A stretch of 40,326 bases of DNA, taken from contig CACOAW010000011.1 in NCBI GenBank assembly GCA_902625325.1, positions 1 through 40,326 on the forward strand, in the 5' to 3' direction. The notes beneath the pieces are model-generated. The model was not told the DNA's origin and made no database searches. It saw only the letters and a program-made list of their open reading frames with translations. Position numbers and translations under genes: made by a program. Source of the stretch: an uncultured Candidatus Poseidoniales archaeon (lineage in GTDB: Archaea > Thermoplasmatota > Poseidoniia > Poseidoniales > Thalassarchaeaceae). This document shows positions 2 to 27,696 of this stretch, one piece after another; the first letter of the stretch is position 1; the number at the start of each line of letters is the position of its first letter.

Positions 2-655
2 AGTCCCAATGATGGAGAGGACAGGCCTGGTACCTCAACTAAGAGGAACTGGGTAGACTCCATGTGGGACGATACAGAAATCAGACAGTTCGATATGGAA
101 GAGGCAGTTTCTTGCCTCAAATCGAGGTATCCGGATTCGCAGGCGACCCTGGCGCTAGAATCCGGAGGATACATGTGGAGAGCCTCCTGGTCCAGGCCTA
201 CTTCAGAACCCCAATGGAACATGTCTTGGGTTGACGAGGATGATGACTCTGGTTGGCTGGTACTTCAGAGATCATCTGAAGGCTGCGAGATGCTTTCAAC
301 TGGATCAAATGATAGGGGTGAAGTTACTTGGAATAGAGACTCCATACCCAGTACTCAGACTCTCTCTTTACTGGAATCGAGGATTCTAGACTCTGAGAGA
401 TATCCCGACCTGTCTCCATATGTACAGTCCGGAGAATCCTGGAATCTTCAAGCACAGGTTGGTTACAGACTATCTGTAACAGAGGATAATGAGATTCTGA
501 GCCTCCTACCTGGCGACTTGGGAGATGGAAAAGTGACCCTGACGGCAGTTAGGGAATGGGAAGAAGAAGGACGAGAAAAGTCAGTTGATTTGGCCATGGA
601 CTCTGAGACCGGAGAGATGGTCATATGGTGGCTCATCGACAGTCCTAGCGAGTGA
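2..655 (+). CDS. Hypothetical protein, 5' end outside the window
   Basis: I do not recognise this protein. The reading frame is open all the way to the left edge (from base 2), so the first ATG in the window at 62 may be internal and the gene may start upstream. The visible part is about 217 residues, acidic, and unusually rich in Trp, Ser, Glu and Asp. It has no evident signal peptide, membrane segment or cysteine motif. Several short WxxxW-like strands suggest a beta-rich soluble domain, but that is only an impression. It ends about 70 bases before the ParA gene on the same strand, so the two could be co-transcribed, although an AT-rich box before parA suggests a separate promoter. Confidence 0.6.
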   Translation, partial: SPNDGEDRPGTSTKRNWVDSMWDDTEIRQFDMEEAVSCLKSRYPDSQATLALESGGYMWRASWSRPTSEPQWNMSWVDEDDDSGWLVLQRSSEGCEMLSTGSNDRGEVTWNRDSIPSTQTLSLLESRILDSERYPDLSPYVQSGESWNLQAQVGYRLSVTEDNEILSLLPGDLGDGKVTLTAVREWEEEGREKSVDLAMDSETGEMVIWWLIDSPSE

Positions 656-724: not shown

Positions 725-1675
725 ATGGGTTCGAAGGATAGTGACCAAGGTCTTCCTGAGGTCGGGGTGGCTCCTCTGATCATAGATGTCGAATTCTTGG
801 AGGAAGAGGACGAAACGCTTGCTCAACCCCTTGATTCAATTGAGGAGGTCAGTTTTTCGAGGCCAAGAAGCGCGATGGAACTCCCTCCATCCCTAGCTAC
901 CCCACAAGGGAGGGCCAGAGTAGTGACCGTGATCAATCAGAAAGGAGGGGTGGGTAAAACCACCACAGTAATCAATATCGCAGCTCAGATCGCTCTCAGG
1001 GGGTTCAGAGTCCTGGTCATTGATTCCGACTCACAGGGGAACTGCGCTACAGGTCTTGGTGTGGACAAGAGCAAGGTCAAGAACACCACGAGAGACCTGA
1101 TTCTCAGTCCCGAGACGGCAGTCGACTCCAGGCATGCAACTGCAGTTGAGAACCTACACATCATCGTCGGCGACAGGAGTCTTATTGGACTGGAGCAGGA
1201 GATGATGAGACAGCTTGGAAGAGAGAAGAGAATGAAGGAGGCTCTTCGACCACTACTGGCTCACTACGATCTTGTGCTAATCGACACGCCCCCTTCACTA
1301 GGCCTGGTGACAATCAACGCATTGGTGGCCTCGGATGGTGTTCTAGTACCCGTACAGACAGAATACTTCGCTCTGGAGGGACTAGCCTTGCTGTCCGGGA
1401 CCATCAGAGAAGTAAGGAGCCTCCTCAACGAGAGGTTAGGGGTGGATGGGGTGCTATTGACCATGCACTCCCAGACACTTCTGAACAAGCAGGTTGCAGG
1501 AGAGGTCTTGGAAAACTTCCCGAATCTAGTAGTCAAACCGGCAATCAGGAGGAACGTAAGGCTTGCCGAGGCACCAAGCCATGGAATCCCTATCCATCTA
1601 CACGATCCTTCCAGCCCCGGTGGTAAGGATTACCAGGACATAGCAACCGAACTTCAACACCGATGGAGTCTGTGA
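725..1675 (+). CDS. parA: ParA/Soj-family chromosome-partitioning ATPase
   Basis: ParA-type Walker ATPases form ATP-dependent dimers on DNA and drive partitioning or positioning of chromosomes and large complexes. The deviant Walker A motif KGGVGKTT lies near residues 73-80 and is fully canonical, including the signature lysine. Walker A' (VIDSDSQGN) and the DTPPSLG Walker B region follow. A ~65-residue acidic N-terminal extension precedes the ATPase core, as in some bacterial ParAs. I chose the ATG at 725; a TTG nine bases earlier is also possible. The next gene begins three bases after the stop and starts with a ParB-like peptide, so this protein's activator may be encoded there. No full ParB gene is visible in the window. 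Confidence 0.9.
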   Translation: MGSKDSDQGLPEVGVAPLIIDVEFLEEEDETLAQPLDSIEEVSFSRPRSAMELPPSLATPQGRARVVTVINQKGGVGKTTTVINIAAQIALRGFRVLVIDSDSQGNCATGLGVDKSKVKNTTRDLILSPETAVDSRHATAVENLHIIVGDRSLIGLEQEMMRQLGREKRMKEALRPLLAHYDLVLIDTPPSLGLVTINALVASDGVLVPVQTEYFALEGLALLSGTIREVRSLLNERLGVDGVLLTMHSQTLLNKQVAGEVLENFPNLVVKPAIRRNVRLAEAPSHGIPIHLHDPSSPGGKDYQDIATELQHRWSL

Positions 1676-1678
1676 TTA

Positions 1679-2644
1679 ATGGCTAAAGGTGGTCTGGGCA
1701 GAGGACTGGATGAGATATATTCCAAAACAGAAGGACCCGACTTATCTTCTTTCGTAACTGAAGAAAAGATGCCAGATTCTCCTAGGGCCGCAGTCATCTG
1801 GATGATATTCGGAAGCTTCTGCTTTGGAAGCATGAATGCGCTGGTCAAATGGACTAGCGACCACACTGATGTTTGGATGATTATCATGGTCAGGTCAGCA
1901 GTTATCGCACTCGCTGTTGCAGCATTCGCTGCCTCTAGTGGGATTAGTCTGAAGGTAAACGATCACAGAACTATGTTGCTTAGGTGCATAGTAGGGCTTA
2001 CTGCCATGATTCTGTACTTCACCGCACTTGGAAGGATTCCAATCGGTCAAGCCGTGACTCTCCAATACACTGGTCCCCTATTCGTCGCCCTCCTTTCTGG
2101 GAGGATACTGGCCGAGAGGGTTTCCGCATCGGTGGCAGGTCTGGTATTGACTGCATTCGCTGGAATCGTTCTAATTGTCTCCCCAGAGGTAGGCACTGTA
2201 GACCCAAACGCACTGCTTGCTCTCGGCTCCGGATTCTTCGCAGCATTAGCGTACATGTACGTCAGGGAACTCAGGAAGACAGATTCTCCGGCTACCGTCA
2301 TATTCTGGTTCGCAGCTTTTTCGGTGTTTGCTAGCGTCGTTCAATCTGCACCTCACATCCCCGAGCTTGATTCAAACACGATTGCAGCCCTCATCGGCAT
2401 AGGAATTGGTGCTGGAGGTGGGCAAGTGGGAATCACCATGGCATATCACAAGGCCAATGCCGCTTGGGTGAGTGCTTTTTCATATCTGACGGTACTAGTC
2501 GCAACTTTCTACGGCTTCACCCTTTTCGGAGAATCGCTCTCTCTGGCAGATTGGATGGGGGGCGTTTTAGTTGTAGGATCTGGAATCGCACTTGTTTTCG
2601 TCTTCCCTCCGCATGAGAATAGTGAGTTGAGTAATACTTCCTAG
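1679..2644 (+). CDS. EamA/DMT-family transporter with a ParB-like N-terminal peptide
   Basis: Residues from about 31 on form a typical drug/metabolite transporter of the EamA type, with around ten hydrophobic helices arranged as two repeats and short loops. The substrate cannot be told. The first 30 residues are not transporter-like: they read MAKGGLGRGLDEIYSK, closely matching the N-terminus of bacterial ParB/Spo0J (GLGRGL plus acidic/hydrophobic tail), the segment known to contact and stimulate ParA. The ATG at 1679 is only three bases after the parA stop, and an internal ATG at 1769 would yield the transporter alone. Either the two are a real fusion, or a ParB remnant has fused to a transporter gene, or 1769 is the true start and the upstream part is a decayed ParB. 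Confidence 0.85.
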   Translation: MAKGGLGRGLDEIYSKTEGPDLSSFVTEEKMPDSPRAAVIWMIFGSFCFGSMNALVKWTSDHTDVWMIIMVRSAVIALAVAAFAASSGISLKVNDHRTMLLRCIVGLTAMILYFTALGRIPIGQAVTLQYTGPLFVALLSGRILAERVSASVAGLVLTAFAGIVLIVSPEVGTVDPNALLALGSGFFAALAYMYVRELRKTDSPATVIFWFAAFSVFASVVQSAPHIPELDSNTIAALIGIGIGAGGGQVGITMAYHKANAAWVSAFSYLTVLVATFYGFTLFGESLSLADWMGGVLVVGSGIALVFVFPPHENSELSNTS

Positions 2645-26793: not shown

Positions 26794-27696
26794 TCAACCC
26801 TCAGAAATAGTACTGATTCTCCTGTCCGCCTCCTTTGCGAACTCCCAGTATGATCTGCTTGCAGAGTTTGTCTTGTTGGGCTTCTGTGCTATTACAATGG
26901 GTGCACCTTCAAGAGGGGACTCCGCGATAGATACAGACCTTGGAATCTGAGAATCGAATACCCTTTCTCCGAAGTGCCTCCTAGCTTGCTCAGTGACGGT
27001 TTCGCATAGTTTGCTCCTTGTCTGAACCATCGTCATCAGAATGCCCAGCAATCCGAGATTTGGGTTTACTGACTTTTGCACATCTCTGACTGCAGATATC
27101 AACTGTCCCATTCCTTCTAGAGCGTAGAACTCTGCTTGGATTGGGATTAGGACCCACTCTGCTGCGCACAGCGCATTTACTGTCAGTAGACCAAGTGATG
27201 CTGGTGTATCGATAATGATAATATCGAAGCTGTCCATAGCCTCACTCAGAGCCAGCTTGAGCCTGTTCTCCCTACCAACCCTTGTCGCAAGATCCACTTC
27301 TATTCCAGATAGGTCCATGTCGGCAGGAAGAACCCATAGGTTTCGGACTGCGATATGATTAGGCGGGCCCCTCGACTTTCCTGGATTACTCTTCCTCCAT
27401 GATGCCTTCATCGATCCGGTCAGAAAGTCAGGGCCAAGAGTGCAGTCTTCCAGTCTAAGTGAGGAGCTATCCACACCCCTCGAGAATAGCTCGTTCATAG
27501 TCGGTCCGACTGTCCTTTTGTCAACTCCGAATGTCGTTGCCACGTTCCCTTTCGGGTCCATGTCCACTAGCAGAACCCTCCTGCTACTAATCCCGTAGTC
27601 CTCGCTACCCAGGGAAAGGGCAGATGCCAGATTCACAGAAGTAGTCGTCCTAGCGCATCCTCCCTTGTGATTGACACAAGCGATTACGATAGCCAC
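26794..27696 (-). CDS. ParA-like ATPase with altered P-loop
   Basis: The whole-length fold is ParA/Soj: HKGG near residue 10, Walker A' LLVDMDPKGN, Walker B IIIIDTPASLGLLTVNAL and the switch/DNA-binding C-terminal half. The P-loop, however, reads KGGCARTT (K11 to T18) instead of KGGxGKTT: the glycine is Ala and the phosphate-binding lysine is Arg16. The signature lysine is kept. ATP hydrolysis may be weak or absent. The start is GTG 27696, 39 bases after the MoxR stop, so it is likely the last gene of an aIF5B-MoxR-ParA run. It differs clearly from the canonical ParA at 725. Confidence 0.88.
   Translation of the reverse strand: MAIVIACVNHKGGCARTTTSVNLASALSLGSEDYGISSRRVLLVDMDPKGNVATTFGVDKRTVGPTMNELFSRGVDSSSLRLEDCTLGPDFLTGSMKASWRKSNPGKSRGPPNHIAVRNLWVLPADMDLSGIEVDLATRVGRENRLKLALSEAMDSFDIIIIDTPASLGLLTVNALCAAEWVLIPIQAEFYALEGMGQLISAVRDVQKSVNPNLGLLGILMTMVQTRSKLCETVTEQARRHFGERVFDSQIPRSVSIAESPLEGAPIVIAQKPNKTNSASRSYWEFAKEADRRISTISEG

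Follow-up and report, generated by a model that had tools for sequence, protein, structure and literature searches.

Genes at the locus

The window, by which is meant the whole stretch of DNA analysed (40,326 nucleotides), comes from a Candidatus Poseidoniales archaeon whose genome assembly comprises 1.42 Mb in 33 contigs and is 79% complete. The features considered here are as follows.

2..655, + strand: C-terminal end (last 217 residues) of a SAP-domain, single-span membrane protein, encoded by the module's first gene and truncated at the window edge
725..1675, + strand: Soj-type ParA ATPase with a deviant Walker A motif, KGGVGKTT (AAA_31, 8ray and 1wcv matches)
1679..2644, + strand: EamA (DMT) transporter whose N-terminus bears a tail of the putative ParA-activating type (Pfam, predicted model, Foldseek)
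1691..1720, + strand: core peptide GLGRGLDEIY, residues 5-14 of the transporter, a ParB-like candidate ParA-contact motif (conservation, pN/pS, likeness to ParB)
1733..1756, + strand: second conserved block, GPDLSSFV, residues 19-26 (alignment, pN/pS)
26794..27696, - strand: second ParA-family ATPase, about 25 kb away and outside the module, 53% identical to the ParA of locus L146

The product of the parA gene (725-1675) matched AAA_31 at 3.3e-54. Its best solved relatives are 8ray (6.3e-59) and 1wcv (6.6e-52), the latter presumably T. thermophilus Soj. The code 8ray is given for M. xanthus ParA in the accessible sections of PMC12462528. The ATPase at 26794-27696 is possibly a separate DNA-segregation ATPase; the relative in L146 precedes a short ORF that by eye looks ribbon-helix-helix-like (SegB-like).

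The ORF at 1679-2644 (+) encodes 321 amino acids, and its ATG lies three bases past the parA stop at 1675. It was identified as EamA (PF00892) with 87.5 bits against a cut-off of 28.2, and a Pfam search at E values up to 1 returned EamA and a weak TPT match alone, with no ParB/Srx (ParB_N) domain. No parS-binding HTH domain was found by Pfam or in the predicted model. That model, built from 26 sequences, has a mean pLDDT of 79.6 and, on reading, ten membrane helices, one of them broken; a hydropathy scan gave nine segments. Foldseek matched it to the DMT carriers SLC35B1 and 5i20 (which we take to be YddG) and to a triose-phosphate translocator. The N-terminus of the DMT fold is expected to be cytoplasmic. 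Residues 1-31, the tail, are disordered in the model (pLDDT under 50), and the membrane domain is structured.

The N-terminal tail of the transporter

The N-terminus of the transporter reads MAKGGLGRGLDEIYSKTEGPDLSSFVTEEKMPDSPR, with the opening motif stretch MAKGGLGRGLDEIY. Residues 5-13 resemble the N-termini of the true ParB proteins 6t1f (RRGLGRGLSALLGE) and 1vz0 (LGRGLEALLPKT), presumably those of Caulobacter and T. thermophilus, respectively, and the tail shows the ParA-activating pattern of ParB, L-x-R-x-L-x-x-hydrophobic. A PDB search with a 30-residue peptide found nothing. The residues of M. xanthus ParB that matter for ParA are, according to the accessible sections of PMC12462528, L11, R13, L15, L18 and I19; their counterparts in the fusion are L6, R8, L10 and I13. 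The first-pass annotation had described a ParB-like N-terminal peptide on a transporter whose gene begins three bases after a canonical parA and which carries no ParB DNA-binding domain. The sequence, the Pfam results and the ParB N-termini all agree with the first part of that description, and Pfam and the predicted model bear out the second.

Among 34 distinct fused N-termini, L6, G7 and L10 are present in all, R8 in 32 and G9 in 30, and residue 14, the motif's fourth hydrophobic position, is variable. The arginine is missing from two, which read GLGISL (L104) and GLGMGL (L118). It is apparent from the same alignment that there are two conserved blocks, [GAV]LGRGL and GPDLSSFV, with more variable linkers between and after them. 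In a sample of 12 sequences from the genus of the window organism, pN/pS was 0.15 for GLGRGLDEI and 0.09 for GPDLSSFV; the membrane domain gave 0.13, the spacer between the blocks 0.43 and the linker after them 0.26. By this measure, both blocks are under purifying selection at a level like that of the membrane domain.

Distribution of the tail

One locus was kept per distinct ParA protein, giving 84 parA loci. The gene after parA encodes a small soluble protein in 17 of these, an EamA protein with the motif (degenerate forms included) in 41 and an EamA protein without it in 26. The 67 distinct parA-EamA loci span seven genera. Absence of the GLGRGL block from related parA-transporter pairs had been named beforehand as grounds for rejecting the activator reading; what was found is mixed, the block being absent from 26 of the 67 and present in 41. 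A loose version of the motif, searched for in any frame around the parA stop, was recovered at 40 of the 41 tail-bearing loci and at six of the 26 tail-less ones; five of these six hits lie solely inside the membrane domain and the sixth adds one unlike match. The tail is near-invariant in genera g1, g9 and g10 and in parts of g3 and g5. One contig with an archaeal parA-EamA pair (L041) is titled Acidiferrobacter sp. and is likely mislabelled or misbinned.

In a quick tree of the ParA proteins, those of the EamA type form one side of a branch (SH-aLRT 98). Three changes in tail presence are needed among them, and the starred branches force two; these counts are the same for gain or loss, and the partner group drew long-branch warnings. 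Since the tail resembles the small soluble protein described below, the simplest reading of the sequences would be a single fusion followed by several losses.

Twelve genomes from the tail-less lineages (g2, g3, g5 and g7) were searched for a separate peptide-bearing gene, defined as an open frame of at least 91 amino acids with a match to the narrow pattern G-[LF]-G-[RS]-G-[LF] among its first 60 residues. There were 20 matches, none of which qualified.

A soluble partner and the source of the tail

The small soluble protein, referred to here as the partner, is 130-160 amino acids long, and its gene comes directly after the same parA in four genera of the family (g4, g6, g8 and g11) and four of the sister family (g16, g17, g19 and g21). 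It follows parA in all 41 stretches examined for it, some of which are the same locus fetched twice, and its typical start is ..GLGRGLDDLLAQHDTDLPFLxAYG. Matches to it were found in 170 of 292 genomes and in 15 of 22 genera; in g15 and g18 they are weak and split in two. A parA-linked EamA gene occurs in precisely the seven genera where the partner was not found (g1, g2, g3, g5, g7, g9 and g10); two further hits in the search for parA-linked EamA fell in the sister family and are remote (26 and 23% identity). Among 292 genomes drawn across the phylum, 48 matched the partner, and all 48 are labelled as Poseidoniales.

Searches for a known family gave no convincing Pfam match for 14 members and no NCBIfam match for three; hits to HpHbR (0.0014) and AmiR_N (0.22), each for one member, were taken as chance. 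Nothing under 0.08 was found among PDB sequences. The predicted model has a low-confidence N-terminus, a short helix at residues 19-23 and a confident alpha/beta C-terminal domain, for which a fold search of the PDB gave nothing below 0.001; its top hits were to the C-terminal DNA-binding domain of T4 MotA (5.3e-3) and to secretion chaperones. The order-specific small protein at L130:3098-3568 (-) is one whose predicted C-terminal domain is weakly like these folds. As the fold matches are weak, a DNA-binding role for the partner, suggested by the model, is only a lead.

Profiles of the fused tail and of the partner N-terminus aligned in hhalign with a probability of 96 and a score of 34.4, most of the signal coming from the GLGRGL block itself. 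Column shuffles gave no alignment as good in 200 trials (maximum score 15.1). By eye, and loosely in the profile alignment, GPDLSSFV of the tail is perhaps equivalent to DLPFL of the partner. These comparisons make a small, order-specific protein without a ParB domain the likelier donor of the tail.

The alternative offered in the first-pass annotation, a ParB remnant fused by deletion, thus loses ground: the tail is probably not such a remnant, and ParB above the TIGR00180 cut-off was found in one of 292 genomes (G286). That case was discounted, the contig with its canonical parA-parB pair looking bacterial; the pair (L144:2697-4384) is of the bacterial type, with a bactofilin-like ORF nearby by eye, and probably lies on a contaminating bacterial contig. 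In the genome of the window organism itself (C24), a 142-residue ParB_N-like ORF (L002:1337-1765) was likewise rejected, its score being 24.5 bits against a cut-off of 26.3 and its start having no GLGRGL. This ORF adjoins an apparent ribosomal protein L15e gene.

Co-variation with ParA

Every one of the 11 family genera gave strong matches to ParA of the window type, as did four genera of the sister family (g16, g17, g19 and g21). For seven other sister-family genera the search returned only a more distant ParA, and the partner gene was nonetheless present. The partner motif L[GSA]RGL occurs in 23 of 27 distinct N-termini with a window-type parA beside the gene, compared with three of 22 without it; these counts leave out L217, where the contig end truncates ParA, and in one of the four misses an X falls within the motif. 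In L184, L204, L205 and L208, where neither a window-type parA nor the SAP-type gene was found beside the partner, the N-terminus of the partner has decayed further, to RDLDHL or RDFDHL. Sister-family stretches with the SAP-type gene mostly keep RGL or KGF in the partner.

A second comparison concerned ParA itself, cleft columns being those of the peptide cleft or its surroundings as mapped in M. xanthus ParA. Of 14 cleft columns that are invariant in tail-bearing ParAs, six vary among the tail-less ones, compared with 14 of 134 invariant columns outside the cleft (p 0.004). No excess is seen when the two groups are exchanged (one of nine in the cleft, 20 of 140 elsewhere). The changes in the 26 tail-less ParAs are mild: I replaces L152 in 17 of them and V replaces I155 in 11, and the other four varying cleft columns each involve one or two sequences. 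The co-variations of partner motif and ParA cleft suggest contact between peptide and ParA; their counts ignore shared ancestry and so are support, not proof.

The tail-bearing ParAs were also compared with M. xanthus ParA residue by residue. L150, G151, L152, L192, E117 and E176 are kept in all 41, and L155 is replaced by I. At the cleft, all 41 have Q in place of V116, a position that holds a polar or acidic residue in the 17 partner-type ParAs, and L187 is E, as it is in 1wcv as aligned. At the arginine site, E82 is D, and D110 is S, T or N. The position of Y81 holds R in 67 of 67 EamA-type ParAs and R or K in 17 of 17 partner-type ones. Given these replacements, the contact would differ in detail from that in M. 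xanthus. The equivalent of R238, a basic residue that binds DNA, is R or K in all 84 ParAs.

The upstream membrane protein

The C-terminus encoded at 2-655 is near-identical to that of a full-length protein of 697 amino acids (L033:1884-3977). The SAP-type family to which both belong, and of which L053:1604-3946 is a further member, has about 700 residues; the SAP domain lies at the N-terminus, and a long C-terminal part takes up about 500 residues. SAP (PF02037) was found in the three members scanned and one hydrophobic segment in each of six; many of the upstream frames are partial. With a profile built from six members, four of them from counted loci, the family was recognized directly upstream of parA at 82 of 82 testable loci (16 with the partner, 40 tail-bearing and 26 tail-less), two of the 84 having no testable frame. 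A hand-made SAP pattern tried for the same purpose recovered three of 23 loci and was dropped as too narrow.

The SAP-type gene also lies beside the partner in 22 of 27 stretches without a window-type parA; the misses are L184, L204, L205, L208 and L217, the last being cut by the contig end. Judged from its domains, the SAP-type protein is likely to be a membrane-DNA tether. An association of this protein with a nucleoid ATPase and a membrane-borne activator would suggest work at the boundary of nucleoid and membrane.

Interpretation and alternatives

Taken together, the sequence data make it fairly probable that residues 1 to about 26 of the EamA protein are a ParA-activating peptide taken over from the soluble partner that followed the ancestral parA. 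The fused protein is most likely a putative membrane-tethered ParA activator. That role had been proposed in the first-pass annotation; the fusion, the link to parA and the ParB-type peptide hold up and the comparisons favour a functional contact with ParA from a membrane protein, whereas several lineages keep parA and EamA without the peptide, so that the proposal stands in part.

The ancestral module would have consisted of the SAP-type membrane protein, ParA and the partner; EamA would have replaced the partner in seven genera, the peptide being kept and constrained, wholly or partly, in five of them. Comparison of the loci supports both steps. The tail would lie disordered in the cytoplasm and, by way of L6, R8, L10 and I13, may form a short helix on the edge of the ParA-ATP dimer. 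Its binding would trigger ATP hydrolysis by nucleoid-bound ParA at the membrane and so free ParA there, and the SAP-type protein, as the likely DNA tether, would operate at that site too. ParA might carry or space the transporter over the nucleoid as cargo, or the transporter might act as a sink at the membrane, removing ParA from DNA close to the envelope; the present data fit both views alike. Efficient stimulation of ParA by ParB needs paired peptides, according to the accessible sections of PMC12462528, and a dimeric or clustered carrier would therefore be expected.

The tail could instead be vestigial, a deletion having fused the front of the old partner to EamA with no ParA-linked role, or with one limited to aiding translation or membrane insertion. 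The 26 of 67 distinct loci that have the adjoining genes and no tail, and the three changes on the ParA tree, are in keeping with such a history. We hold it to be improbable in view of the purifying selection on GLGRGLDEI and GPDLSSFV, which is like that on the membrane domain, the near-invariance of the tail in g1, g9, g10 and parts of g3 and g5, and the ParA cleft columns, whose excess of variation is confined to the tail-less group. It is likewise unlikely, in our estimation, that the peptide does bind ParA but that the object is transport rather than the chromosome, with ParA or the nucleoid gating or clustering the transporter. Many cargos are positioned by ParA/MinD systems through the N-terminal peptide of a partner, as set out in the accessible sections of PMC10241942, and a second ParA-family ATPase is present in the genome; the SAP domain on a membrane anchor in the family of the first module gene nevertheless points to DNA.

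Two further readings would remove the peptide, or its meaning, altogether. Translation might begin at the Met near base 1769 (Met31), a possibility raised in the first-pass annotation together with poor conservation upstream of it. The window has a Met there and homologues without the tail begin nearby, but M occupies the column in 15 of 34 tail-bearing sequences, the part upstream is constrained as protein, and in most tail-bearing loci it begins within about 15 bases of the parA stop; we give this reading hardly any credence. The resemblance to ParB might also be due to chance, with no common function, the GLGRGL DNA pattern occurring 0 to 4 times per genome. The other matches in three motif-bearing genomes were short frames and one frame cut by a contig end, likely homologues of which place the site near residue 275. 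Against chance stand the N-terminal position, the adjacency to parA, the conservation and the presence of the same motif on an otherwise unrelated partner after the same parA, and we regard coincidence as very improbable.

Relation to known systems

Chromosomal ParB/Spo0J, as described in the accessible sections of PMC12462528, resembles the fusion in having L-x-R-x-L-x-x-hydrophobic in a disordered N-terminus and in being encoded directly after parA; it is unlike the fusion, for which no ParB/Srx domain or HTH was found and whose carrier is a many-helix membrane transporter. In cargo-positioning ParA/MinD systems such as McdAB, PpfA-TlpT, ParC and PomXYZ (PMC10241942 and PMC9178275, accessible sections), an N-terminal peptide of the partner contacts the ATPase, while its remaining part determines which cargo is moved. 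Those systems are bacterial and their cargos are large assemblies, whereas the ATPase here is an archaeal ParA and the carrier a polytopic transporter. As a ParA/MinD partner, the fusion would, on the predicted model, join a disordered N-terminal peptide to a structured membrane domain. Partner tails in such systems are described as positive (PMC10241942, same sections); the present tail, counted from its sequence, has a charge of +2 over residues 1-10 and about -1 over residues 1-26.

Precedents for ParA regulators other than ParB are TipN, which has two transmembrane domains and interacts with ParA from the membrane (PMC9178275), and PadC, which links ParA to bactofilins and, unlike the fusion, binds ParA by a ParBC domain (PMC5703909); no LGRGL-type peptide is described for either in the accessible sections of these papers. 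SegAB of the Sulfolobales is similar in pairing an archaeal ParA-family ATPase with a small non-ParB partner. SegB differs in being DNA-binding, and no ParB-type peptide or membrane protein is described for this system in the same sections of PMC9178275. The EamA/DMT transporters 5i20 and SLC35B1 share the DMT fold with the window protein, which differs in its ParA-type tail and its operon with parA.

Searches of titles and abstract openings in a library of open-licence papers found nothing on a ParB-type peptide on a transporter or on ParA in Poseidoniales. Nothing was found by these searches on an SAP-type membrane protein with ParA, or on descent of the tail from a partner without a ParB domain. 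To our knowledge, little is known of how ParA is used in archaea without ParB, or of the coupling of DNA to the membrane in archaea.

A wider reading, tentative and on the doubtful side, is that the LEM-like SAP membrane tether, the Soj-type ParA and the ParA-activating transporter would make up a membrane-nucleoid coupling module in which transport or the position of the carrier would set the site of ParA release. Such a module would have arisen when a ParA-activating tag was transplanted, in nature, from a soluble partner onto a transporter. The locus offers a ready test, being a three-gene module with a short peptide of known contact pattern and a soluble partner for comparison; the natural losses of the tail, some with a matching change in ParA, add to its value. 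Partner peptides are established as tags for ParA/MinD systems in the accessible sections of PMC10241942, and the fusion, if correctly read, would be a natural example of the luggage-tag idea for ParA-type ATPases. The move of the peptide to a transporter in these ocean archaea would then let the membrane itself act on the ParA motor.
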